Below are positions 64-25,351 of a DNA stretch of 31,830 nt, piece by piece. The notes under the pieces were generated by a model. The model saw nothing but the letters and a program-made list of their open reading frames with translations, had not been told where the DNA came from and ran no database searches. How positions within the stretch are numbered: the first letter of the stretch is position 1; the number at the start of each line of letters is the position of its first letter. The stretch is from a virus, in IMG/VR virus record IMGVR_UViG_3300050020_000451, positions 1 to 31,830 of that record, one strand, 5' to 3'. The translations under genes and the position numbers were made by a program.

Positions 64-94
64 TTGTTGATAACAAAGTACTTAAAAAAATAAT
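64..94 (+). promoter_or_regulatory. Predicted sigma-70-type promoter with overlapping small dyad
   Basis: TTGATA at 67-72 is a good -35 hexamer and AATAAT at 89-94 a good -10, separated by 16 bases. The region is AT-rich, unlike nearly everything after it. The start of transcription would fall near 101-103. A short dyad, TTGTT-GAT-AACAA at 64-76, overlaps the -35 and could be an operator. It is the only strong promoter-like sequence I see ahead of the long run of + strand genes, so it may drive the late operon. The boxes are read by eye. Confidence 0.5.
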
Positions 95-144: not shown

Positions 145-309
145 ATGACGACCAACAATGAGGCCATTGAGGCCATCGCGGACTACGCGCGAGAACTCGG
201 CTCGCGCGTCACCGAGGACCTGGGAGCACCGCAGACGCATACCATGCTGGCCGTGCTGACGCGGCTGCGGGCGATGTACGAGGAGTTGCGGGACGGGAAC
301 CAGTTGTAA
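145..309 (+). CDS. Small helical hypothetical protein (54 aa)
   Basis: This is a 54-residue protein beginning MTTNNEAIEAIADYAREL. The ATG at 145 is preceded by AGGAG at 132-136 with good spacing, and the frame is open to TAA at 307-309. Composition is charged and alpha-helical, with heptad-like leucines in the second half (TMLAVLTRLRAMYEELRD), which suggests a helical hairpin or small oligomer. There is no transmembrane segment and no recognised family. It is the first gene after the predicted promoter and precedes the hairpin-rich leader of the antiterminator gene. A regulatory role is possible from position only. Confidence 0.6.
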   Translation: MTTNNEAIEAIADYARELGSRVTEDLGAPQTHTMLAVLTRLRAMYEELRDGNQL

Positions 310-360
310 CTACCTGATTCTTTGGATCTGATCCACCCCCCCCGATACAGATAAGTAGAT

Positions 361-447
361 GGAGCCGCAAAAGCTCCGTGAGACGAGCCCCTCCTCTCGT
401 CGAACACGAATACCAGGCGGAGACTTCCCCCGGAGTTCCCGCCTGGT
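361..447 (+). promoter_or_regulatory. Three tandem hairpins in the leader of the NusG-like gene
   Basis: The 200-base gap between the first small gene and the antiterminator gene has no coding potential I trust on the + strand. It holds three consecutive perfect stems: GGAGC 361-365 with GCTCC 372-376; GACGAG 382-387 with CTCGTC 396-401; and ACCAGGCGG 412-420 with CCGCCTGGT 439-447. None is followed by a U-run. Their serial arrangement just ahead of a transcription-elongation factor gene suggests a cis-acting RNA, such as a recruitment site (compare ops for RfaH or put RNA in HK022) or an attenuator. The function is inferred. Confidence 0.5.
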
Positions 448-507
448 TCTCTTGAAAACAGGAGGGGGTAGACCGGCATCGAAACGAGCCAACACCGGGC
501 CGAACCG

Positions 508-1059
508 ATGCAGGAAGGGGCCGGAGGCTATCGATTGAACTGCTGGTACGCACTGCACGTGGCGAGCAATCACGAGCGCAAGGTACAAGGCCAGCTTCAG
601 TTTCAGGGCATCGACGAATTGACGCCGTTCTGGATTCCCGATCCGAAGCGGCTAAACCGCTTCACGAAACAGCCCATCGAGCGCGCCCTGTTCCCCGGAT
701 ATACGTTTTGCCGCTTCGATCCGTGCTGCTCGGTAGAGTACACACCGATCCTGCGGATTCCCGGCGTGATTCAGGTCCTCTGTTTGGAACGAAACCCGGT
801 ACCAGTCCCCGAGCACGACATCGAGAATATCCGCCGGCTGATCCAGTGCCCAAGTCTGATCCGTCCAATCATGACCGCGCCAAACCTCCAGCAAGGCGAT
901 TGGGCGGAAGTGATCCACGGGCCCCTGACCGGAGCCGTCGGCCAGGTGACCTACCTCCACTCGCGGATGCGGGTGGTGATCTGGATTCAGGCCATGCATT
1001 CGGGCATTTCCGCCGAGGTGCAGGCTGGGGATCTGATGCGGATTCGAAAAGCCGCCTGA
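508..1059 (+). CDS. NusG/RfaH-family (UpxY-like) transcription antiterminator
   Basis: Proteins of this family bind the RNA polymerase clamp and suppress pausing or termination. The N-terminal NGN domain is recognisable from about residue 11: NCWYALHVASNHERKV, then ALFPGYTFCRF near residue 60 and ILRIPGVIQVL near 81. A KOW-type segment follows around residues 127-155, centred on GDWAEVIHGPLTGAVGQV. Length (183 aa) fits specialised NusG paralogues such as RfaH and UpxY. The ATG at 508 has no clear ribosome site. A TTG at 535 has GGAGG at 523-527 seven bases upstream and would give a protein starting MNCWYALHV, the usual family N-terminus, so 535 may be the true start. It heads the terminase-to-tail gene run, so a role as phage late antiterminator is likely but inferred. 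Confidence 0.85.
   Translation: MQEGAGGYRLNCWYALHVASNHERKVQGQLQFQGIDELTPFWIPDPKRLNRFTKQPIERALFPGYTFCRFDPCCSVEYTPILRIPGVIQVLCLERNPVPVPEHDIENIRRLIQCPSLIRPIMTAPNLQQGDWAEVIHGPLTGAVGQVTYLHSRMRVVIWIQAMHSGISAEVQAGDLMRIRKAA
523..527 (+). promoter_or_regulatory. Ribosome binding site favouring a TTG start at 535
   Basis: GGAGG lies seven bases upstream of an in-frame TTG at 535-537. The upstream ATG at 508 has no purine-rich element at suitable distance. The shorter product aligns better with known NusG N-termini, which begin a few residues before the WYAL/WYVV motif. Confidence 0.5.
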
Positions 1060-1493
1060 TGGCCAGCGAATTTATAGCCGTGACCCCTGAGTTAGTGGGG
1101 TATCGGTTCTACAAGTTCATGCAACGCAACCAAATCCAAAATGCTTCCCCCGGCCGCCGTGCCGCGGGAGCCTCTACAACCCGAGAAACTCTGGGTCAAA
1201 TCAATCTGAAAGAAGTCCGGGAAGCCATCGACTACCAACTGGGGAACTGCGCGGGACCCAAGTCTCCGCCACCGCCGGCACAGACGCCGCTGGAGTTCGC
1301 TAACGCGAGCCTTGTCAAGGCGAATCAGATCAACAGCGGCCTTGGGGATCTCCGCAGGCGGATCTTTGGAGACGAGTCGGAGCCTGACCCGGAGCCGAAG
1401 ATCATGCCGTGCCTCGAATCGGTACTCGCCGCCACGCACTTCGCGCTCGCTACGGCCCTCGAGCAAATCGAAGCCATCCACGGACGCCTCTAA
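1059..1493 (+). CDS. Hypothetical protein (144 aa)
   Basis: The ATG at 1059 overlaps the stop of the antiterminator gene (TGATG), so the two are probably translationally coupled. The protein begins MASEFIAVTPELVGYRFY. Its N-terminal third is basic with a Ser/Gly/Arg-rich linker, a proline stretch (KSPPPPAQTP) lies near residue 70, and the C-terminal third is mainly helical (LESVLAATHFALATALEQIE). There is no membrane segment and no catalytic motif I can name. Coupling to a NusG-like gene suggests a shared regulatory or packaging-stage role, but nothing in the sequence proves it. Family unknown. Confidence 0.65.
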   Translation: MASEFIAVTPELVGYRFYKFMQRNQIQNASPGRRAAGASTTRETLGQINLKEVREAIDYQLGNCAGPKSPPPPAQTPLEFANASLVKANQINSGLGDLRRRIFGDESEPDPEPKIMPCLESVLAATHFALATALEQIEAIHGRL

Positions 1494-1564: not shown

Positions 1565-1783
1565 ATGAATCCAACAACCCTGGCCATCATCGTTACCGCC
1601 GCCGGTGCCGCAGTCAACTTCATTTGGTCCATTTTCAATTTACGCGTGCTGGCCGGAGTCGAAAAGAAGATCCGCCTGGAATTGAAGGAGTACTGTACCC
1701 GCATCGAGTGCGAAGGAAAACACAAACTCTGCGACCGAGAGTTTGCCGAGATTAACCGGCGCCTGGAACGCGCCGGGGCCTGA
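1565..1783 (+). CDS. Small membrane protein with one N-terminal TM helix (holin- or spanin-like?)
   Basis: The 72-residue protein starts MNPTTLAIIVTAAGAAVNF. A single hydrophobic helix spans roughly residues 5-28, followed by a charged helical tail rich in Lys, Arg and Glu. The tail has two cysteine pairs, within EYCTRIECEG and HKLCDREF. A GAGAG element precedes the ATG. One N-terminal TM helix with a coiled-coil-like soluble tail is compatible with a small phage lysis protein (type III-like holin or inner-membrane spanin). No endolysin is visible nearby, so this is a guess from topology and position ahead of the terminase genes. Confidence 0.6.
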   Translation: MNPTTLAIIVTAAGAAVNFIWSIFNLRVLAGVEKKIRLELKEYCTRIECEGKHKLCDREFAEINRRLERAGA

Positions 1784-1809: not shown

Positions 1810-2460
1810 ATGTTGAGCAACGAACAGATCACCGCCAGCCTGTTGGTGGCCCAAAAGCGGTTGAGCGCGACCCGCATTGCGGAAAAACTCCAGATCACGC
1901 GCCGAACCCTGTTCAACTGGCGGAGCGACCCGGAATTTCGGGATGCGGTCTACCAGCACCGCAACGCCTGGCGCAAACACGTCCAGACCTGCGGGATCGC
2001 CGACCAGGAGTTGCGGGTATACAACCTCAACAATTTGATGGCGCGATACGTTGGGCTGATTCGGGCGCGCGCCAAGATGTACGGCGCCACCGCCGAAGGT
2101 CGCACCGGACTCTCCACGCGCAAGTACCGGACGCTGCATGTCGGGCCGGAAACGTGTCAGGTCGTGGAAGAGTGGAAGCACGACGCCGCGCTCGTGAAGA
2201 TGATCCTCAACCTGCAGAAGCAGGCCGCCATCGAGATGGGGCAATGGCAGTCGAAACGCGAGGTGAGCGTGACATTCAGCCAGACATCGATCACCCTGGC
2301 GAAGGTCTACAGCCCCGAGCAGCTCGAACAGTGGCAGGCCGACCTTCAGCAGCAGCTCGCCGCGCAGCCTAGCACGAATGCCGACCTTGCCCAGCATCGA
2401 CCTCAAGTCAGTCCAGTCCCAGGACATCGAGCAAGCTCTCCAGTACCAGAAGCGGAATAG
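1810..2460 (+). CDS. terS: Terminase small subunit with N-terminal helix-turn-helix
   Basis: This is probably the DNA-recognition component of the packaging motor. Residues about 4-45 form a helix-turn-helix of the phBC6A51 type: a helix around EQITASLLVAQKRLS, then ATRIAEKLQITRRTLFNWRSDPEF. The middle is helical with repeated Arg/Lys (residues about 50-150), compatible with an oligomerisation core, and the C-terminus is Gln- and Pro-rich. Length (216 aa) is in the usual range for small terminases. The gene ends with TAG and its 3' end overlaps the large-subunit gene by 83 bases in another frame. Assignment rests on the HTH and the position immediately before TerL. Confidence 0.75.
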   Translation: MLSNEQITASLLVAQKRLSATRIAEKLQITRRTLFNWRSDPEFRDAVYQHRNAWRKHVQTCGIADQELRVYNLNNLMARYVGLIRARAKMYGATAEGRTGLSTRKYRTLHVGPETCQVVEEWKHDAALVKMILNLQKQAAIEMGQWQSKREVSVTFSQTSITLAKVYSPEQLEQWQADLQQQLAAQPSTNADLAQHRPQVSPVPGHRASSPVPEAE

Positions 2461-3820
2461 GATGACGCGGCTGTTTCCTAATGAAGGGCCGCTGCGCCGG
2501 GAACTCTACGCCAAACACGTGGAATTCTTCGATGCCGGTGCCCGGTATAAGGAGCGCTTATTCATGGCGGCGAACCGGGTGGGGAAAACGGTCGCCGGCG
2601 CCTACGAGACCACCTGTCACCTGACGGGGATCTATCCCGGTTGGTGGAAAGGCAAACGGTTCAATCATCCGACCGATGGATGGGCGTGCGGCACCAATTC
2701 GGAAACCACGCGCGACGTGGTGCAGCGGGAGTTGTTCGGGCCACCGGAAGCCATTGGTACCGGAATGATCCCGGCGGAACTGATCATCCACACGACGCCG
2801 AGGACGCACGGGGTCGCCAACTCGATGGAGTCGGCCTGGATTCGGCACGTTTCGGGTGCGAGTTCCAAGTTGGTGCTAAAAACCTACGAGCAGGGTCGCA
2901 AGAGCTTCGAAGGAACGTCGAAGGATTTCGTCTGGCCCGACGAAGAGCCTCCCGAGGATGTCTACGTCGAGATGTTGACGCGCACCTTGACCACGAGGGG
3001 CATCGTCTACATCACCTTCACCCCGCTACAGGGGATGTCGCGGGTGGTCACCGGATTTCTGGAGCCGAGCGATGCGGCCAAGCAGTACAAGTTCTACGTC
3101 CAGGCCGGGTGGAATCATGCGCCTCACCTGGACGAGCAGGAAAAGAAGATCCTGCTGGCCACCTATCCTGCCTATCAACTGAAGGCCCGTACGCTGGGCG
3201 AGCCGACACTGGGCGCTGGCGCCATCTATCCCATCGCGGAAGAGGACATCTCGACCCCGCTGATGGCGATTCCCGACTCCTGGCCGCGGGTCTACGGCCT
3301 CGACGTGGGGCATAACCGCACCGCGGCCATTTGGGGCGCAAAGAACCCCGGCTCCGGCGTGATCGTCTTGTACGACGAGTATTATCAGGCGCAGGGCGAA
3401 GCCCCCACGCACGCCGCCGGCATCAAAGGGCGTGGCGGTTGGATACCGGGCGTGATCGATCCGGCCTCGCGCGGGCGGTCCCAGACGGATGGCCGCCAGC
3501 TTCTGGTCATGTACCGCGAACTCGGCCTGAAAGTCACGGAAGGCGATAACTCGGTCCAGACCGGCCTCACCGAAGTCTGGACCCTGATGGTCGCTGGCCT
3601 GTTGAAGGTGATGCCGAACTGCCTCAACTGGTGGAATGAATTCCGCAAATACCACCGGGACGAGAAGGGCAACATCGTCAAAGAAGCAGACCACTTGATG
3701 GACGCAACCCGTTACCTGGTCAAAAGCGGCCGGGACCGAATGATTGTGAAACCGATGCGTCCGAGTGCTTCGCCCTCCCGGACGGCATCGCCGGGCAACG
3801 ACCGCGGGTGGATGGTATGA
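2378..3820 (+). CDS. terL: Terminase large subunit (packaging ATPase-nuclease)
   Basis: TerL powers DNA translocation into the procapsid and cuts the concatemer. The ATPase domain has a Walker A, AANRVGKT, at residues 64-71, a Walker B, FVWPDEE, at 184-190 with the catalytic acidic pair, and a coupling-motif-like TFTPLQG at 213-219. The C-terminal RNase H-like nuclease shows the expected aspartates: YGLDVG (D309), VIDPA (D361) and HLMDATRY (D442). Length, 480 aa, is typical. The start at 2378 overlaps terS. An alternative ATG at 2462 would remove the first 28 residues, but the helical N-terminal extension ahead of the KHVEFF motif is usual in relatives, so I keep the longer form. Confidence 0.93.
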   Translation: MPTLPSIDLKSVQSQDIEQALQYQKRNRMTRLFPNEGPLRRELYAKHVEFFDAGARYKERLFMAANRVGKTVAGAYETTCHLTGIYPGWWKGKRFNHPTDGWACGTNSETTRDVVQRELFGPPEAIGTGMIPAELIIHTTPRTHGVANSMESAWIRHVSGASSKLVLKTYEQGRKSFEGTSKDFVWPDEEPPEDVYVEMLTRTLTTRGIVYITFTPLQGMSRVVTGFLEPSDAAKQYKFYVQAGWNHAPHLDEQEKKILLATYPAYQLKARTLGEPTLGAGAIYPIAEEDISTPLMAIPDSWPRVYGLDVGHNRTAAIWGAKNPGSGVIVLYDEYYQAQGEAPTHAAGIKGRGGWIPGVIDPASRGRSQTDGRQLLVMYRELGLKVTEGDNSVQTGLTEVWTLMVAGLLKVMPNCLNWWNEFRKYHRDEKGNIVKEADHLMDATRYLVKSGRDRMIVKPMRPSASPSRTASPGNDRGWMV

Positions 3821-5979: not shown

Positions 5980-8316
5980 ATGTTCCCGCCCTCCGCACCC
6001 GACATCTCGCCCGCCATGGCCAACATGGTTCCTTCGCAGCAGCAGCCGCAGATTCCCCTGACGGATGCCTCGAAGAGCCTGCGTTCGCCACAGGTCAAGG
6101 CAACCGCCGGGCGCAAAAAACAGATCGAGGACGACGGGGCCATCGAGCGGGACCTGTTACGTGAGGCTCGCGAGCGATTCCGAACAATTGTCGAGTACGA
6201 GGAGAAGTTCCGGCGGAAAGCCATCGAGGAACTCAACTTCGTCGACAACATGGACCACTGGAAGCCGGAGCAGCGCGAAGAGCGCAGGGGCCTGCCCTGC
6301 CTGGCCTTCGATAAGATCGGTCCATCCTGCGATCAGGTAGTCAACAACATGCGCCAATCGCCGCCGGAAGGACGCATCTCCCCGGTGGGCGAAGGTTCCA
6401 GTAAAGAAGAAGCGGCAATTATCCAGGGGATCAACCGCAACATCGACCAGGACTGCGGCGCGGATACGGCCAGAAGCACAGCCTTCGAGCACGCCGTCAA
6501 GATCGGCATTGGCTGGTGGCGGGAAACGTTCGACTGGGAAACCAACGAAACCGAAGGGGACGCACTGCAGAACTGTTTTCTACAGAAGCTCATCTCCAAG
6601 CGGATTCCCAATCCCTTCTCGATCTACTGCGATCCGGCGGCCACCGAGTATGATCGCTCGGACATGAGGTACCTGTTTGCCACCGAAGATGTAGACCCGG
6701 TCGCTTTCAAGGAAGAGAACCCGGACGCGAGCACCGCCCTCACTACCGACTTCACGCACCTGTCGGACAAGGAAAAAGAGGACTGGTTCCCCGGCAAGAA
6801 GAGTATCCGCGTGGCCGAGTACTGGTGGATCGAGAGCGGCCCCAAGGTCCGGGTGCTGATGCTCTCCAGCCGAAAAGTGGTTCGCGAGAAGGATTTTCAG
6901 CCGGAACTGTATCCCGGCGTTTACGAAATAGGGCACCGCGACATCCGCACCCCAGTGGTCAAGACCGTGAAAATGACGGGTATCGAGGTATTGGGCGACG
7001 TCATGAAGTGGGAAGGCAAGTGGATTCCCTTTGTGCCGGTAATCGGCCGCGAAGTGCTGGTCGACGGCAGGGTAGCCTACCGCGGCATGATCCGGCCGGC
7101 AATGGAAGCCAATTTGGCCTACGACTTCATGGCCTCGAAAGAAGCGCAGGCGATCGCGCTGGCGCCGATTAGCGAATTTATCGCCGCCGCGGGCCAGGTG
7201 GAGAATCACCCCGAGTGGTACGAGGCCAATCGTAAGCCGCACGGCATCCTGACCTACGACCCGCTGGACGTCAACGGAATCCAGGTTCCGGCACCGTACC
7301 GGGTCAACACGGAGGCTAACATCGGGGCTATCACCCAAGCCCTGATGCACCGCGACCAGGACATCAAGAACTCGCTGAATATGTGGGGGCCGAACCTGGG
7401 CGAGCCCGCCAGTGAGCAGTCGGGCAGGGCGATCAACGCGATTCAGCGCCAGGGAGACAACGCCCACTTCAACTACGCGGACAACTACGCCAGAAGCATC
7501 CGCCACGCGACGCGCATCCGGCTGAACCTGATGCCGCACGTTTACAGTGACGAGCAGGTCATCACCATCATGGACCCGGACGGTAAGGTCCGCTCGGTCG
7601 CCATCAACAAAGACATCCTCGAAAAAGGCGTCCAGCGCATGTGGCGCGTGGGCGCCGATTTCAACCCGGCTCGCTACGACGTGAGCATCGGTACAGGCGT
7701 TCCCTACGCCAGCCGCCTGGATCAGCAAATTCAATCGGTATTGCAGCTCTGCGGGAATAATCCCAACGCCAGCGGCCGGGCCCTGGATCTCATCGCGAAA
7801 TTGCTGGATCTGCCGCAGGAATTCATCGACCGCTGGAGACCGCCCGACGTACAAGCGGAACAGGATGGCGCCGAAGGCCAGCAGCAAGGACCTAATCCCC
7901 AACAAATACAGGCGCAGATGATGCAGCAGCACCAGTTGATTCAGGTCCTCATGCAAAAACTGACGCAGCTTTCCGAAGATCTGAAGACGCAACGCCTGCA
8001 ATTGGAGAGTCAGGAGCGCATCCAGGCCCGTCACGACGCGGCCGGAATTTTGAAAGCGGAAATTTCCGCCAAGTCCGCCGAGGGGCAGAAACTGGCGCAA
8101 CTCGACCACGACGCCATAGCCCAGCGGATTGAAATTGTCGCCAACCAGCCGGACATCTCCGAAGAGGCCCAACAGACCCAGCCGCCGGCGCCCATCGCCG
8201 GAAGCGGCGCTCCCGGATCCGCCCTGGTGCCGCCGACAGCCCCGCCTCCGATCCCGCCGGCATCACCGGCTCCGATGGCGATGCAGCCAGGTCCACCGCC
8301 GCAACCCATGGCATAA
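5980..8316 (+). CDS. P22-like portal protein
   Basis: The portal forms the dodecameric DNA channel at one capsid vertex and docks the terminase. The 778-residue product resembles the P22 gp1 family (725 aa): a helical charged N-terminus, the segment ELNFVDNMDHWKPEQREER near residue 87, then CLAFDKIGPSCDQVVNNMR near 107 and NPFSIYCDPAATEYDRSDM near 211. The C-terminal third is Gln-rich and helical (around 625-715), resembling the P22 portal barrel, and ends in a Pro/Ala-rich tail. Two further in-frame methionines near the N-terminus (MANMV) are possible starts. Position after terminase and before scaffold/coat supports the call. Confidence 0.88.
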   Translation: MFPPSAPDISPAMANMVPSQQQPQIPLTDASKSLRSPQVKATAGRKKQIEDDGAIERDLLREARERFRTIVEYEEKFRRKAIEELNFVDNMDHWKPEQREERRGLPCLAFDKIGPSCDQVVNNMRQSPPEGRISPVGEGSSKEEAAIIQGINRNIDQDCGADTARSTAFEHAVKIGIGWWRETFDWETNETEGDALQNCFLQKLISKRIPNPFSIYCDPAATEYDRSDMRYLFATEDVDPVAFKEENPDASTALTTDFTHLSDKEKEDWFPGKKSIRVAEYWWIESGPKVRVLMLSSRKVVREKDFQPELYPGVYEIGHRDIRTPVVKTVKMTGIEVLGDVMKWEGKWIPFVPVIGREVLVDGRVAYRGMIRPAMEANLAYDFMASKEAQAIALAPISEFIAAAGQVENHPEWYEANRKPHGILTYDPLDVNGIQVPAPYRVNTEANIGAITQALMHRDQDIKNSLNMWGPNLGEPASEQSGRAINAIQRQGDNAHFNYADNYARSIRHATRIRLNLMPHVYSDEQVITIMDPDGKVRSVAINKDILEKGVQRMWRVGADFNPARYDVSIGTGVPYASRLDQQIQSVLQLCGNNPNASGRALDLIAKLLDLPQEFIDRWRPPDVQAEQDGAEGQQQGPNPQQIQAQMMQQHQLIQVLMQKLTQLSEDLKTQRLQLESQERIQARHDAAGILKAEISAKSAEGQKLAQLDHDAIAQRIEIVANQPDISEEAQQTQPPAPIAGSGAPGSALVPPTAPPPIPPASPAPMAMQPGPPPQPMA

Positions 8317-8375: not shown

Positions 8376-9581
8376 ATGGCCGAACTGAGTGAGCTAACAA
8401 TCGAATCGAAATCGCAGAGCGCCGACACGATCCGCAAGATTTTGGAAGATCAGGGATTCGCGGACATCCAGACCGCCGAGCAAACCGACCGTCCTCCCGA
8501 GCCGGCCGTTGCCGACGCGCCGCCGGTGGCCGAAGCAATTCCACCCGCTGCCGAACCTGGTCTCCCCGCCGCCGATGGCGAGGACGCCGGCGAAACCGCG
8601 CAGGCCGCCGCCGCAGAACCGCCGGCGCCCGCGGAACACAAGAAGAAGGGCGGCTTCGCGCGCAAGCTTGAAGCCCAGAAAAGCGAACTCGACAGCCTAA
8701 AGGCCACGCTCGTTGCAATGGAACGGAAACTGGCGGCGCCCGCCGCTGTGCAACCGCCCAAGCCAGAATCTCCCGAGGTCGAACCCCCGAACCCCGCGGT
8801 TGCGGAAGACCCGGAGCCCAAGATCGAGCAGTTTGAAAACGAAGAGGACGCCTACAGCGCCTGGGTGAAAGCCGTCGCCCGATGGGGCGTACGGGACGAA
8901 CGCAGGGTACAGGCAAAACGCGAACAGGAACAAAAGGAGAGCGAGCAAGCTGCGCGCACCAGTGAGACGGAGCAAGCCGCCCGGTCGGCCGCCGAGGCGG
9001 AGTGGAAGTCCATCACGGAGCGCTGGAATCAATCGCTCGCCAAATCCAAGGCCGTTCATCCCGACCTGGAAGAAGTTCTGAATCGCCCCTTCGATCCGAA
9101 GAAGCCCACGGGCAACGTGGTATTGGGAACGGTCGCCAACGACTACGACGAGAGTGCGGAACTGTGCTACTGGCTGGGCACGCACCCCGACGAAGCCGCG
9201 AACATCGTCTCCCGCACCAACCTGCCCGAAAACTTCCGCAATCTCGGCCCGCGCGCGCAGCAACGCGCGATCCGCGTCGCCGAGGATGCCGCTCGAGAGG
9301 CGTTTGACGAGATTCTCGCCAAATTGCCAGCCGCTCCCGGCCCGGGGCAAGCTACCCCGGCGCCTGCCGAACGTCGTGAGACGCCCGCCGCAGCGGCCCC
9401 CGCACCGAATCCCGCGGCTGCTCCGGCAGCCGCCGCGCCGCCGCGCCCTAAAGCGGAGCCCCCGAAACCTGTGGGCCACCGTGGGGGCGCGGTGACCAAG
9501 CGTTACCCGGAAGACTACAGCACGGCGGAACTCAAGGCGCTGTCCATCGAGGATGTGCGCCGTCTCCGCGGGCTGAGTTAA
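8376..9581 (+). CDS. Probable capsid scaffolding protein
   Basis: The 401-residue protein lies between portal and coat, the P22 position of scaffold gp8 (303 aa). It has no globular core. It is a charged, Ala/Pro/Glu-rich helical protein: an acidic N-terminal linker (about 25-85), a coiled-coil-like stretch (KLEAQKSELDSLKATLVAME near 100), a long helix rich in Glu, Lys and Gln (about 165-215), then a Pro/Ala linker (about 330-370) and a short mixed-charge tail ending SIEDVRRLRGLS. This low-complexity helical design is typical of scaffolds. The ribosome site upstream is weak. The function is from position and composition, not from a motif. Confidence 0.7.
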   Translation: MAELSELTIESKSQSADTIRKILEDQGFADIQTAEQTDRPPEPAVADAPPVAEAIPPAAEPGLPAADGEDAGETAQAAAAEPPAPAEHKKKGGFARKLEAQKSELDSLKATLVAMERKLAAPAAVQPPKPESPEVEPPNPAVAEDPEPKIEQFENEEDAYSAWVKAVARWGVRDERRVQAKREQEQKESEQAARTSETEQAARSAAEAEWKSITERWNQSLAKSKAVHPDLEEVLNRPFDPKKPTGNVVLGTVANDYDESAELCYWLGTHPDEAANIVSRTNLPENFRNLGPRAQQRAIRVAEDAAREAFDEILAKLPAAPGPGQATPAPAERRETPAAAAPAPNPAAAPAAAAPPRPKAEPPKPVGHRGGAVTKRYPEDYSTAELKALSIEDVRRLRGLS

Positions 9582-9594
9582 CACTGCGATTTCC

Positions 9595-9628
9595 GGCCGC
9601 CGCCACGTCGTGAGATGTTGCGGCGGCC
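9595..9628 (+). terminator. Strong GC hairpin between scaffold and coat genes
   Basis: GGCCGCCGC at 9595-9603 and GCGGCGGCC at 9620-9628 are perfect 9-bp complements with a 16-base loop. The sequence after it is CAATCTTAA, without a real U-run, so it may act as a partial terminator, an RNA-stabilising structure or a processing site. It sits about 65 bases before the coat start, where differential expression would be useful. Confidence 0.4.
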
Positions 9629-9693
9629 CAATCTTAACCCCTAACCAGGCCTGAGATTTCAGGTCACTACCGTTGCGAAAACGGGAGGATATT

Positions 9694-10959
9694 ATGGACG
9701 AAATTTTGAATCCTGTGGTCATTGCCCAGGACAGCCTCATCCGGCTCGAGAACGACTGCACCATGACGAAGATGGTGAACAGAGAGTTCGACGAGAAGTT
9801 TGCGGTCAAGAACGAAAAAATTGGCTACACTTTCAATGCCCGCCTGCCCGTGCGTCTGCGCGGCCGACGCGGCGACGGCATCAAGCCCGAAGGCATCCAG
9901 GAACAGATGGTGCCGGTCGTGATCAACGAACTGTGGGGCCAGGACCTGCAGAACTCCGATCAAGACCTTACCATGACGATCGACCGCTTCGGCGAGCGCT
10001 ACATCGAACCCGCCTCGGCCACGATCGCCAACATGATCGACGGCGACCTGTGCGATCTGGTCTCCGGCTTCTTCAGTTTCGTCGGCGTACCCGGCGTGCT
10101 GCCGAGTTCGGTCGCCACCTATGCGGCAGCCGGCGTCGAGCTGACCAATAACGCGGTCCCCCGCTCGGTCAGTCTGAACGCCATGGTCATTTCCCCCGAC
10201 ATGACCGCAGCCGTGCTGGGCTTCAATGCAAACCTGCTCAATCCGCAGAAAGAAGTCTCCCAGCAGTACCTCACCGGAAAGATGGGGACCGCCCTGAACT
10301 TCCGGTTCAACGAGGATGTGAACATCTACCGGCACACCGTGGGCAACCTGGGAACCGCCGGCGCCCCGACCTCGAATCCGCTGGTGGATATCACCGGAGG
10401 CGGCGTGACCAACAACGGCGCCACCATCCTGACCAAGGGCTGGGACGCAACCGTCGCTATCTTGAAGCAGAACGATATCGTGTCGTTCGCGGGCTGCTAC
10501 GGCGTCAACCCGATCAGTTACCGCAACACCGGCAAGCTGCGCACCTTCGTGGTTACTGCCGACGTAACCAGCGTCGGCGCGGCCGGCACCATCAACATCT
10601 CCCCGCCGATGAACGCCGACACCACAAGCCCGTTCCAGACCGTGACGGCCCTCCCGTCCGATGGCGCGCAGGTTTTCGTGTGGGGTCTTCCCTACACGGC
10701 CTTCTCGACCATCGCGGCAATCACCACCGCCCAGGGCGCAGCGTTCCACCGCGATGCCCTGACCTTGGCCATCGTGAAACAGGAGCTTCCCGGCGGCATG
10801 GAATGGTCCGAATGGGTCTCCAACCCGAAACAGGGCCTCGGGATTCGCCTGGTCCGCGGCTACGTGATCGGAACCAACGAGAAAATCACCCGGCTCGATG
10901 TTCTGGGCGGCGTGAAACGCATCCGCGACGAGATGGGCGTCCGGGTCTGCGGCGCGTAA
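9694..10959 (+). CDS. Major capsid protein, P22 coat (gp5) family
   Basis: The product (421 aa from the ATG at 9694) is of coat size (P22 gp5 is 430 aa). I chose 9694 because GGGAGG at 9683-9688 precedes it at ideal distance; an upstream in-frame TTG at 9673 is less likely. Matches to the P22-type fold include an N-terminal helix (SLIRLENDCTMTKMV), a mid-protein inserted beta region with NDIVSFAGCYGVNPI (compare GDKISFAGVKFLG in P22) and a C-terminal segment FHRDALTLAIVKQE (compare the NVFWADDAIRIVSQPI region). It is flanked by scaffold and hairpins, as expected for the most expressed gene. Confidence 0.85.
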   Translation: MDEILNPVVIAQDSLIRLENDCTMTKMVNREFDEKFAVKNEKIGYTFNARLPVRLRGRRGDGIKPEGIQEQMVPVVINELWGQDLQNSDQDLTMTIDRFGERYIEPASATIANMIDGDLCDLVSGFFSFVGVPGVLPSSVATYAAAGVELTNNAVPRSVSLNAMVISPDMTAAVLGFNANLLNPQKEVSQQYLTGKMGTALNFRFNEDVNIYRHTVGNLGTAGAPTSNPLVDITGGGVTNNGATILTKGWDATVAILKQNDIVSFAGCYGVNPISYRNTGKLRTFVVTADVTSVGAAGTINISPPMNADTTSPFQTVTALPSDGAQVFVWGLPYTAFSTIAAITTAQGAAFHRDALTLAIVKQELPGGMEWSEWVSNPKQGLGIRLVRGYVIGTNEKITRLDVLGGVKRIRDEMGVRVCGA

Positions 10960-12660: not shown

Positions 12661-12677
12661 CCCTCGCACGCCTTCCC

Positions 12678-12707
12678 GGGGGCGGTTGCAACCGTCCCCG
12701 CCTTTTT
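12678..12707 (+). terminator. Intrinsic terminator after the second secreted protein gene
   Basis: GGGGGCGGTT at 12678-12687 pairs with AACCGTCCCC at 12690-12699 (one G/U), and GCC plus a five-T run (12703-12707) follows. This is the most canonical Rho-independent terminator in the window. Because the next gene starts only 13 bases later with its own ribosome site, some read-through must occur, perhaps aided by the NusG-like factor. Confidence 0.65.
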
Positions 12708-12719
12708 CAGCGAGGAATC

Positions 12720-13058
12720 ATGACTACCTACTTCGGCAAACTCACGATCGGCGCGACTCCGGTTCAGCTTCCCACCGATTTCCCGCTGGTCAACAAAATT
12801 ATCGTGCAGCACGCACCCGGCAACACGGGGAACTTCAAGGTGGGAGGCAACGCCAGCCTGACCACTGACACCACGACGCCGGGAATCACCATCGCGCCCG
12901 CCGGTGCCGGGGCGAACCCGGACAACAGCACGCCTCCCGGAGGCGCCTGGTCCGTCGAATCCTACGCCGACAAAAACGATATCCCGGTCAAGCAGTATTT
13001 CTTCCACGGCACGCACTCGGGCGATCTTCTGATGTACCAGATCCACGTCAAGGTGTAA
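12720..13058 (+). CDS. Small beta-rich virion protein (112 aa)
   Basis: GAGGA at 12711-12715 precedes the ATG at 12720. The protein starts MTTYFGKLTIGATPVQLP and contains NKIIVQHAPGNTGNFKVGG, then a Thr/Pro/Gly loop (about 45-75) and LLMYQIHVKV at the end. This pattern of short strands with VQLP and NTGNFKVGG resembles a small module common in phage head-tail regions. It has no signal peptide, unlike its two upstream neighbours. A capsid or tail accessory role is inferred from shape and position. Confidence 0.7.
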   Translation: MTTYFGKLTIGATPVQLPTDFPLVNKIIVQHAPGNTGNFKVGGNASLTTDTTTPGITIAPAGAGANPDNSTPPGGAWSVESYADKNDIPVKQYFFHGTHSGDLLMYQIHVKV

Positions 13059-17412: not shown

Positions 17413-20406
17413 GTGAAACGACTCCCGATATTTCTACTGGCCGCATGTCTCGCGCCCGCGCTATTCGCTCAGAGCTTGAGCCAACCCTCGCCCCACGAGC
17501 CGATCCCGAGTACCGTGGCGCACCTACCCGCAGCGGCTTCCGCCACCAACCGGGTCTTCCTGGTGACCGATGGCGCCAGCACGAGCGACTGCACAATTGG
17601 AATGGGGACCTCACGGTCGCTCTGCGCGAGCAACGGCACTTCCTGGATCGCGGTGGGCGGCGGTGGAGCGGGAGCGGCCAACATTCAGGCGAACGTCGCC
17701 GGGCCCGCCACCACGACCGGTGCCATAAACATCACGGCTTTGGGACTGACGTCCACGACTTTGAATTCCCTGGCGGCCATGTGCTATACGGGGACCGGAT
17801 ATGCGTCCAGCCTGGTGACGGGCGACTTGACTCCACTGGCGTGCTCGGTGACCACGCGCAGCACCAGCGCAGTCACGGTGACGTTCAGCAATTCTTCGAA
17901 CGTCCTAGTGGTTATCAACGCCACGGGAACGGGGCCTCAGGGAATTACAGGCGCCTCCGGACCGACCGGCCCAGCTGGGGCTACCGGCGCCCCGGGCGCG
18001 ACCGGGGCGGTAGGTCCCTCAGGCCCTAGTGGAAGCACCGGGATTACCGGCGCCACGGGTGCTACGGGAGCCACTGGTGCCATCGGACCATCAGGGCCAA
18101 GCGGAGCAAGCGGGGGCGGGGCTTCCTATCCTGGCTGTACGGCAGACGGCTCCAACGGGATCACCTGCACGGGCGGCCTATCTGCGGGCGTCGGGGGAAG
18201 CGCAGCGGGAGCACTCCATCTCGGGCAGGGGACCACGGCGACCGCTGGCACAACTGAAGTGGTTTTGTACGGCGCTTCGGCCATCACGTCCTACAAGATG
18301 CGCCTCCCCAGCGCCGCGGCGACGGGGTTCTTGCTCGGGACCAACACGGCAGGGGACGTGGTCCAGACATTCGTGGCGCTGAATACCGGGATTATCGACA
18401 GCAACAACTATGCCAGCTTTGCGGCGGCCTGCACGGCGGCGGTGTCAGCGACATCGAACCTGCTGGTGGGTAAAGCTTGGACCGCGCTCACCACGCAATC
18501 GTGTGCCGCGCCGATCACGTTCACGGAGTCCGGGAGCTTGCAGCCCGCCTCCGGTCAGACCATCACGCTGACGGGCACGGTCACGGCCGGCTCGTATCAG
18601 ATATTTGACATCTCCGCGAGCGGGCTATTCGCCGTTGGACCCCACACGCAGGAAGTCCTCGCCACATGGTTCGGTGCTACGGGCGGCGGGTCCGTGGATG
18701 ATACAGCGGCGATCCAGGCGGCGATCAATTCTCGCAGCACGTCTGGTGGGACCATACGCCTGCTGGCAGGAACTTACAAGACCAGCGCCGCGATCACGAT
18801 TACCACGACTGGAACGATTCTGGTAGGGCAGGAATTCCCCACAATCACAGGCAACGGCTTCACGATCATCTCCAGCACGTCAACCACGGCAGACGTAATA
18901 ACCGTTAACGGCACGGGGACGAATTGCAATACAGGGGCCATCGCGTGGCCCACGGTGCGCAACCTGGCAGTGACTCGCTCTGTGACCGCATCTGGGAGCG
19001 CGAAAGGAATCGACATCTACGACGCCTGCTGGGCGCGCGTAGAGGATGTAGAGTCGGACGATAGCGTGATCGGCATATATGTCTACAACGCGGCCGATAC
19101 ATATCTAAACAATCTCCAGATCGGTGCGATGACCGGGACTGGCACGAAATACGGAGTTGTCATCGACAGTTCATCGTCTGGCGCCAACAACAGCACGTGG
19201 CTGAACCGTGTGGCGGTTACAGGTTCAGGGGGGGCTACCACCGGGGTTTATCTGCACGGGGACTGTATTGGGGATACGTTCATCGACTCGCTTCAGAGCA
19301 GCGGCATTGCCTACGGCGCGCAAATCACATCGACCTACCACGGCAGTTCTTACTGCAATGGAGATGTTATCCTTACCCGTCCGGTTTTGGATGGGGTGTT
19401 GACGGCAGGGATCGTCGTCACCAACGTCTACGGAACGGGCATCGCGTCCGTCAAGATCTCCGGAGCGCACATTGTCTCTGCGGCCGCCAGCGTGATCGGC
19501 GTCGATGTGGAGAACAGCAGCGGAGTGCTGGTGACCAATTCGGAAATCACGAATTCCGGACAGGCAGCCAACAAAGGCATTTACGTCAACGGGGCTAACT
19601 CGCAGAACAATGTGTTCAGCGGGAATACGATCTTCGGCGAGTCCACCGGGATCGGCCTGAACTCGACAGCGAACAACGTGGTGAGCGCCAACGCGATCAG
19701 CGCCGATTCCGCCTACACGACGGGCACCGCCATCGCGGCGACCAGCGCGACGTACAACACGATCACCGGAAACTCCCTTCAAGGGACGATTACCAACGGG
19801 ATCACTCTGGACTCCGGCAGTACGAACAACATCCTGTTTCCGAACACGTGCAACATCACGGGAACGTGTCTGGCGGACAGCGGTACGGCGAACGTTTCAC
19901 TCAATGCCAATGTAGGCACATGGAATACAACCCCTTCCGGCGCGAACCTGGCGGCGGCGCTAACCAGCGCGCTGCCGAACAGCAAGGGAGGAACGGGTGG
20001 CGATTCCAGTTCCAGCACGGGCTACGCCAAAGTGGCCAGCGGAACTTGGGGATACGCTGCTATCCCGGCTGCGGATCTTCCCTCTACCCCGTCCAGCATC
20101 GGGGCGACCACGCACACGATGACGGCCCCGCGCGAGTACTTCTTCTGCACCACGGCAACCGCTTGCTCGGTGACATTGCCGGTGCCTGCCGCTGGATACG
20201 AGTTCTGCGTCCGCTCGGACAACAACGTCTCCGCGGCGATCACCTTGGCTGGTCGCACGAGCATCTACTACGAACTGCCCGCCCGAACTGGGTGGGGTAC
20301 GGTAAGCGCGGCCCTAGTATCTTCCGGGGCGGCTGTAGACAACCAGGTCTGTGTGATCGGCTACGACGCCACGCACTACGCGATCATGTCGAGCAAGGGG
20401 TTCTGA
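17413..20406 (+). CDS. Collagen-like, pectate-lyase-fold tailspike with signal peptide
   Basis: The 997-residue protein starts with GTG at 17413. Order: signal peptide (1-19, cut before Gln20), an N-terminal beta region, a Gly-X-Y collagen-like stretch (174-235, about 20 triplets), a linker, and a pectate-lyase-superfamily entry motif [20 protein letters not shown] (419-438). A right-handed beta-helix of repeating Asn/Gly/Thr/Val turns runs to about residue 815, followed by a linker and a C-terminal domain (about 895-997) ending [14 protein letters not shown]. Trimeric beta-helix tailspikes bind and often cleave surface polysaccharide, and the collagen part would act as a shaft. The secretion signal is unexpected for a tailspike. 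Substrate is unknown. Confidence 0.85.
17932..18117 (+). repeat. Collagen-like Gly-X-Y coding repeat
   Basis: About 20 consecutive Gly-X-Y triplets are encoded, with GATGAT-type units (Gly-Ala-Thr) and GPSGPS-type units. Codon variation within the repeat is large (GGC, GGA, GGT and GGG all used), so it is not a recent slippage expansion. Phage collagen-like segments typically form triple-helical fibre shafts. Confidence 0.85.
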
Positions 20407-24772: not shown

Positions 24773-25351
24773 ATGGAATATGACCTGACCGCCACCGTGA
24801 ATTACGTCATGCGGCATGCCCGGATCCCCGACCATCTGCGGGAGGATGCCCGGCAGGAGGCGTATGTCGGCGCCGTGCAGGCCGCGCGGAAGTTTGACGG
24901 GTCGTGCCAATTCGCCACCTACGCGCAGTATCGGGCCGCCGGCCAGGTCCGCGATTTCCTGCGCCGGGAAGATGTTTTGAGCCGGAAGCACCGCATCCAG
25001 GTGCGCAACGGAGAAACGCAAGGGTCCAAACACGTACCCTTGATCGTCGCCGATCGGGAACGCGCCACGCCGCCCGATCAGGAACGCCGGGTCTGGCACG
25101 CGGAGATCCGCTCCTGGTTAAGCGTTTTGAATACGCAGCAGCGCTGCGTCATGACGAGCCTGTTTATCGAGGAGCGAACCCTGGAAAAGACGGCCGACGT
25201 TTTGGGGCTATCTCTCCCCTACGTCTGGAAGGTGCGCAACACCTCCCTGGCAAAGCTTCGGGCCCACCTCCGCTGGTCGAACGCCCGAAAGTCCGTCGAA
25301 GGAAACGTATGCCAACCAAACTTGCGCTTTGTCTCGCCGTTAGCTGCCTGA
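24773..25351 (+). CDS. Phage-encoded sigma-70-family RNA polymerase sigma factor
   Basis: Region 2 is clear at about residues 22-66: LREDARQEAYVGAVQAARKF, then FATYAQYRAAGQVRDFLRR, which matches the polymerase-binding and -10-recognition helices of SigB/FliA-type factors. Region 4 is at about 115-166: LNTQQRCVMTSLFIEERTLE, then a helix-turn-helix with KTADVLGLSLPYVWKVRN. The 40-residue linker between lacks a full region 3, as in small alternative sigmas. The product (192 aa) would redirect host RNA polymerase, plausibly to late or post-late promoters. It lies between the fibre cassette and the gp10-like gene, an unusual place for a regulator. Confidence 0.85.
   Translation: MEYDLTATVNYVMRHARIPDHLREDARQEAYVGAVQAARKFDGSCQFATYAQYRAAGQVRDFLRREDVLSRKHRIQVRNGETQGSKHVPLIVADRERATPPDQERRVWHAEIRSWLSVLNTQQRCVMTSLFIEERTLEKTADVLGLSLPYVWKVRNTSLAKLRAHLRWSNARKSVEGNVCQPNLRFVSPLAA

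Follow-up and report, generated by a model that had tools for sequence, protein, structure and literature searches.

Most of what is known of antitermination in phages concerns proteins, such as N and Q, that have no relationship to NusG; the loading of Q involves a paused polymerase and a DNA element. Among the NusG paralogues, the antiterminators UpxY, LoaP and RfaH are often encoded beside their target operon (PMC7819879, PMC7593976). UpxY is encoded near the start of the operon that it serves and counters termination in the leader (PMC7819879). The RfaH target, ops, is a short hairpin with a G...A loop and a pause-like sequence located upstream of a long operon (PMC5995543), and LoaP of Bacillus, which lets the polymerase pass intrinsic terminators, depends on a small leader hairpin made of RNA (PMC12691694). 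Databases already contain NusG-like genes from phages, and rfaH-like genes on prophages have been mentioned (PMC7593976). The phrog_6386 family and the NusG/RfaH-like BFVD entries from uncultured phages belong to the same family by annotation only, and no description of an operon position, element or function was found for them. In the literature searched, from which most subscription papers were missing, no prior report was found of a NusG paralogue acting as a phage late antiterminator or of the 16-nt element described below.

The window, i.e. the whole stretch of DNA analysed here, is an IMG/VR record of 31,830 bases, a virus record that is probably a fragment. An initial annotation had placed a NusG-type antiterminator at the head of the phage late operon, a reading that would have been refuted had the window been a host locus; this did not occur, the record being viral. 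On the plus strand, the UpxY-like gene is followed by two small genes, the terminase small (TerS) and large (TerL) subunits, and the portal and coat proteins, both of P22 type. It is considered probable that this gene encodes a cis-acting, operon-specific UpxY-type processive antiterminator of the phage late genes, although the activity is inferred and no functional data are available. The relevant features of the window are the following.

67..94, plus strand: promoter-like site in an AT-rich patch (TTGATA, 16 nt, AATAAT; 10/12 consensus matches)
145..309, plus strand: ORF of 54 aa, preceded by the AT-rich patch and followed by the leader, no family match
310..516, plus strand: structured leader with several hairpins, from folding compared with shuffles
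517..532, plus strand: GNA-loop hairpin element GGGGCCGGAGGCTATC, single exact copy in the window
535..1059, plus strand: UpxY-type NusG paralogue, 174 aa from TTG535 or 183 aa from ATG508
1059..1493, plus strand: 144-aa ORF of unknown function, no family, its start overlapping the UpxY-like stop
1565..1783, plus strand: small protein of 72 aa, hydrophobic stretch at the N-terminus
1810..2460, plus strand: TerS (phrog_2538, 3.6e-8)
2378..3820, plus strand: TerL (Terminase_6N, 2.4e-22; Terminase_6C, 1.9e-7)
5980..8316, plus strand: P22-type portal (PF16510, 1.7e-131)
9673..10959, plus strand: P22-type coat protein (PF11651, 1.2e-23; phrog_283, 2.3e-47)
12677..12707, plus strand: intrinsic terminator within the late operon (-19.5 kcal/mol), next gene from 12720
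24773-25351, plus strand: sigma-70 family factor in the late region (Sigma70_r2, 9e-8; Sigma70_r4, 3e-6; phrog_1740, 4.5e-12)

The protein belongs to the NusG paralogues of UpxY/RfaH type, as the initial annotation had recognized. The product of ORF 508-1059 matched PF02357 (NGN domain) at 1.3e-15, above the cut-off, and phrog_6386 ('transcription antiterminator') at 1.1e-20. Its best NCBIfam model was antiterm_UpxY (NF033644; 66.9 bits, cut-off 100), followed by LoaP (58.2 bits, cut-off 125), the RfaH equivalog (49.7 bits, cut-off 144.5) and NusG. None of these cut-offs was reached and the protein is therefore named UpxY-like rather than UpxY, its score being under the NF033644 cut-off. Profile searches of the PDB matched NusG and RfaH chains. 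The structure prediction and the comparison with UpxY and RfaH that had been suggested as a check bore out the assignment at the level of the fold, all family scores remaining under their cut-offs: the AlphaFold model (mean pLDDT 79) displays an NGN fold followed by a C-terminal set of strands, and its best PDB fold matches are NusG and RfaH, including RfaH at ops. The C-terminal strands (123-171, pLDDT about 66-82) are modelled as a putative KOW-type barrel; this part is less certain than the NGN part, and Pfam gives no separate KOW match. With regard to the length of 183 aa given originally, the ORF is real but its start, as judged from the sequence, is more likely TTG535 than ATG508, since GGAGG lies just 5' of the former and the relatives begin with sequences that align with MNCWYALHV; the protein would then comprise 174 aa. 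Used as sole query, the window protein was too diverged to return any match, and searches with alignments as queries succeeded.

Additional loci were gathered by means of these alignment-based searches and of a DNA motif scan. Twenty related viral loci extend for 3 kb or more 3' of the UpxY-like gene; in 18 of them, this gene lies 0.9-8.9 kb 5' of TerL on the same strand. The distances to TerL, in kb from the UpxY-like start, are +1.7 in the window, +5.2 in L057, +8.1 in L331, +8.9 in L333, +0.9 in L334, +4.8 in L142, +3.9 in L171, +3.2 in L173, +8.4 in L174, +5.6 in L328, +4.0 in L329, +1.0 in L335, +4.0 in L336, +5.2 in L338, +2.3 in L341, +1.9 in L342, +2.8 in L343 and +1.5 in L344. No TerL was found within about 10 kb in the two remaining loci, L330 and L340. 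L325, with only 2.3 kb of downstream DNA, and the distant outgroups L345 to L349 were left out of this count. The TerL proteins fall into about five similarity groups (the window, L173, L171 and L140 types, and L331). Lack of conservation with the late region would have refuted the proposal; the gene is instead kept there across several terminase families. In L002/L057 and L005/L060, TerL is 71% identical to that of the window and lies 5 kb downstream of the UpxY-like gene. The gene was not seen in most phages with a related TerL: PF02357 was present in only two of the 22 records of a first TerL search, and in the same two among the 31 of a second one; many of these records are short fragments.

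The gene is the first recognisable one before the terminase in the window, as stated in the initial annotation, but this does not extend to the relatives, which have a small gene and a divergent regulator further 5'. The small gene directly 5' of the UpxY-like gene recurs in eight loci. In L139 it is Mu Gam-like (PF07352, 2.4e-12; phrog_491); the others match one another and no known family, so that the term Gam-like holds for L139 only. The divergent HTH-type gene, a candidate late repressor or activator, is located ~0.4-1.2 kb upstream in L057, L142, L171, L173, L174, L325, L331 and L333 and is separated from the operon by an AT-rich gap; it is GerE-like where any match was obtained, as in L173 (3.7e-4, below the cut-off). 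Several loci display a resolvase gene between the UpxY-like gene and TerS, and L057 contains, at a place like that of the 72-aa gene of the window, a small gene with a weak XhlA match. The window is cut 534 nt 5' of TTG535 and shows only the AT-rich patch and the promoter-like site of this cassette. The 54-aa ORF stands where the relatives have the Gam-like gene, and no homology was found for it. The promoter-like site is a candidate origin, predicted from sequence, of the leader and operon transcript; the match is weak by itself, as such sites are no commoner than expected (two per 14 kb versus 3.1 expected from shuffles). Just 5' of it, an inverted repeat at 8-64 (GATTTTTGG ... CCAAAAATC) surrounds ~35 nt and is a possible operator or recombination site. 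The structured leader reported ahead of the gene was recovered, the 310-540 segment folding at -88.6 kcal/mol (z = -3.0 versus shuffles). Its hairpins (310..516) are not conserved in the relatives, and a search of the window and of six related loci against Rfam gave no match above threshold.

The 16-nt element, of which GGGGCCGAAGGCTGTC is the commonest form, adjoins the UpxY-like gene at 517-532. The motif GGGGCCGNAGGC is present as one copy, on the coding strand and beside the gene, in the window (517), L057, L140, L141 and L142. The viral collection was scanned for this motif with TGGTAYGC 5-35 nt behind it, and 14 loci were obtained. UpxY-like proteins are encoded in five of them, and four of these five, found from DNA alone, were previously unseen. 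The same scan with a gap of 36-66 nt returned only L140, already known. Without the TGGTAYGC anchor, the motif gave 77 matches in the newly fetched loci, 74 of them inside open frames of at least 100 codons, and none of the three outside long frames precedes a UpxY gene. Variants of the element were identified in loci found by protein search: GGGGGCGAAGCCTGTC (L335), CGGGGCGAAGCCTGCC (L342), GGGGCAGGATGCTGTT (L139), GGGCGCGGAGTGTGTC (L137), AGGGCCGAAGGCTGTC (L343) and GCGGCCGTAGGCCGCC (L329, 135 nt upstream of the WFA codons). All variants retain four base pairs around a G-N-A loop. The pairing is intact in 56 of 56 cells (14 distinct rows), with two-sided changes at three of the four pairs, and the covariation score amounts to 0.440 versus 0.154 +/- 0.045 in shuffles, none of 500 being as high. 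Alternative structures obtained by sliding did not come near the score of the GNA hairpin. In a structural scan, the element was found at most 160 nt from the gene in 14 of 22 loci versus 0.0216 expected per locus (P about 1.3e-18 if the loci are independent); the true significance is weaker because the loci are not fully independent and the pattern was partly defined on them. A further structural match, in outgroup L346, looks like chance. L336, L341 and L344, with TerL downstream, are devoid of the element as defined, and L328 and L338 display partial matches only. A second hairpin just 5' of the element was rejected as a general feature, being clear only in L140, L325 and L326. The near-identical phages L141 (106-561) and L142 (1865-1885) differ by a 142-aa gene, whose insertion falls exactly in the interval from the element to the UpxY-like gene.

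The strong intrinsic terminator announced near 12678 is present at 12677-12707 (CGGGGGCGGTTGCAACCGTCCCCG CCTTTTT) with a 10-bp stem and is the strongest in the window. L057 has a terminator (TGGGGCCG...CGGCCCCG TTTTTTT) between the same genes (L057 20995), and L334 has one after its coat gene (16464); the place is thus kept in three phages and the sequences differ. In the window and L057, 12-15 nt separate the T tract from the next gene, which is 61% identical in the two. As no promoter fits into this space, read-through is the simplest way for the gene to be transcribed. A strict scan of the coding strand in 16 loci detected strong terminators in these three operons only.

The locus can now be compared with the described systems. 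With UpxY of Bacteroides it shares the best NCBIfam model and the location of the gene near the start of an operon, whose status as target is inferred for the phage; it differs by the score under the cut-off, by a late operon in place of a capsule operon and by the lack of a visible UpxZ partner. To our knowledge, no hairpin element has been described for UpxY. The resemblance to RfaH/ops of E. coli lies in an NGN protein, with a less certain KOW-type part in the model, and in a G...A-loop hairpin at a pause-like sequence. The phage hairpin, however, consists of a GNA triloop with four pairs, whereas the ops loop is G4-A7 with C3:G8, and the phage protein is encoded in cis. On inspection by eye, the phage proteins do not visibly retain the residues with which RfaH reads ops, and autoinhibition is not seen in the model of the phage protein without being excluded. 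LoaP at dfn/mln is likewise a NusG paralogue with a small leader hairpin; that hairpin is a UNCG-type RNA structure serving antibiotic operons, in contrast to the GNA loop of the phages. Lambda-type N and Q also provide phage-encoded early or late antitermination with unrelated proteins, whereas a copy from the NusG family is used here. The claim that the design is distinct from N and Q stands, with the reservations that NusG/RfaH-like genes were already annotated in phages (phrog_6386, BFVD) and that a sigma gene, found in two of the loci, may share late control.

The gene, its fold class, its conserved position, the covarying element and the kept terminator are documented above; the mechanism is inferred and can be briefly outlined in five steps. 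Host RNA polymerase would initiate 5' of the element, where only the weak promoter match is available, and transcribe the leader. It would then pause at GGGGCCGNAGGCYR, which fits a G-11 G-10 ... Y-1 G/R+1 pause: with Y13 set as -1, position -11 is G, -10 is G in nearly all cases, -1 is Y and +1 is mostly G, a pause-like register that is inferred. The GNA hairpin would load the UpxY-like protein, either through non-template DNA as in RfaH/ops or through nascent RNA as in LoaP. The NGN domain would remain on the polymerase and suppress pausing and termination along the virion operon, including at the terminator that follows the coat gene. Finally, the first UpxY-like molecules would raise their own synthesis, as the element precedes upxY or lies at its very start. 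The initial proposal of a late antiterminator is supported, neither refuting outcome having been met and the covarying hairpin and the kept terminator having been added, with the activity itself still inferred. It also appears reasonably likely, with less confidence than for the window itself, that these loci represent a widespread class of phages, beside those using N or Q, in which a factor of the NusG family, recruited by a GNA hairpin of its own acting in cis, runs the late operon, and in which this factor, the divergent regulator and the small Gam-like gene have been passed on together as a single control cassette between phages whose terminases differ. If true, a device known from bacterial capsule and antibiotic operons would also drive virion genes. 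The element provides a short and easily mutated target for studying how UpxY-type paralogues, in which the RfaH contact residues are not visibly retained, select their operons.

Loading through non-template DNA is somewhat favored, in the absence of binding data, as the loop and the pause-like register match those of ops (PMC5995543). The same protein could have the same role and be recruited by a nascent RNA hairpin, as LoaP requires (PMC12691694); this remains possible, although doubtful, because of the G-U pairs at 3:13 and 5:11, which are stable in RNA and poor in DNA. As DNA, the element folds at only about -1.5 kcal/mol for most variants and not at all for L137. The stem is nevertheless very short for an RNA site, and G-Y at 3:13 is also expected from the pause consensus. 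A hairpin for translational control, or a Shine-Dalgarno site of upxY, unrelated to elongation, could be envisaged from the window, where the GGAGG of the likely ribosome site falls inside the element. This is improbable in view of the other loci: counted from its first base, the element stands 18 nt ahead of the start codon in the window and 42 nt ahead in L140, against 86 nt in L057 and about 455 nt in L141. For L335, L342 and L343, it falls within the apparent opening codons of the gene, and more than one frame is used. As both position and reading frame vary, the element is neither a coding constraint nor a ribosome site, and both candidates were rejected.

An antiterminator acting on the late genes from the adjoining element must also be weighed against readings in which the protein has another role or none. 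Late control could rest mainly on the phage sigma factor and its promoters, the NusG-like protein being accessory, as the window encodes such a factor and L137 a homologue (9447-10034) located 0.9 kb behind the UpxY-like gene. This is unlikely, since the sigma gene occurs in two loci only and terminator 12677 leaves no promoter room before the gene at 12720; the two controls are moreover not mutually exclusive, and the sigma-70 family factor may share late control. Other readings turn on the host. TerLs related to that of the window occur in Acidobacteriota contigs L028-L030, without a UpxY-like gene within the flanks examined, which suggests but does not prove that this phylum hosts the phage. 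UpxY-like genes are present in 76 of 149 Acidobacteriota genomes (at 1e-15), and by homology the phage protein binds where NusG binds, so that it might merely compete with host NusG or UpxY on RNA polymerase without promoting late genes. There is little to commend this interference, as a gene directed at the host would have no need to stand ahead of a co-oriented terminase gene in 18 of 20 loci or to keep an adjoining covarying element. That a capsule-type UpxY gene, common in Acidobacteriota, was acquired by chance and has no phage role is more improbable still: its place is fixed in many phages, the 30 best Acidobacteriota UpxYs form their own clade in a quick tree, with the phage groups outside and weak deep support, and no exact match to the phage motif near TGGTAYGC was found in 297 Acidobacteriota genomes.

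Elements of a comparable kind were also sought upstream of the host genes. The exact phage motif is absent from all 30 host UpxY upstream regions, and the structural pattern occurs in two of them versus about 0.7 expected. The sequence GGCGAAGCC is located ~70-170 nt upstream of six of 50 host UpxY genes (L311, L319, L323, L359, L361 and L367), and across 199 genomes GGCGAAGCCATGTC precedes a UpxY gene at two of seven sites, both in one genome already included. These hairpins could be the host counterpart of the phage element and point to a wider use of such elements, which is suggestive only. GGCGAAGCC is the core of a very stable DNA mini-hairpin. Further along the plus strand of the window, 17413-20406 encodes a 997-aa protein with collagen repeat, beta-helix and pectate-lyase-like matches, a probable tail spike or fibre.
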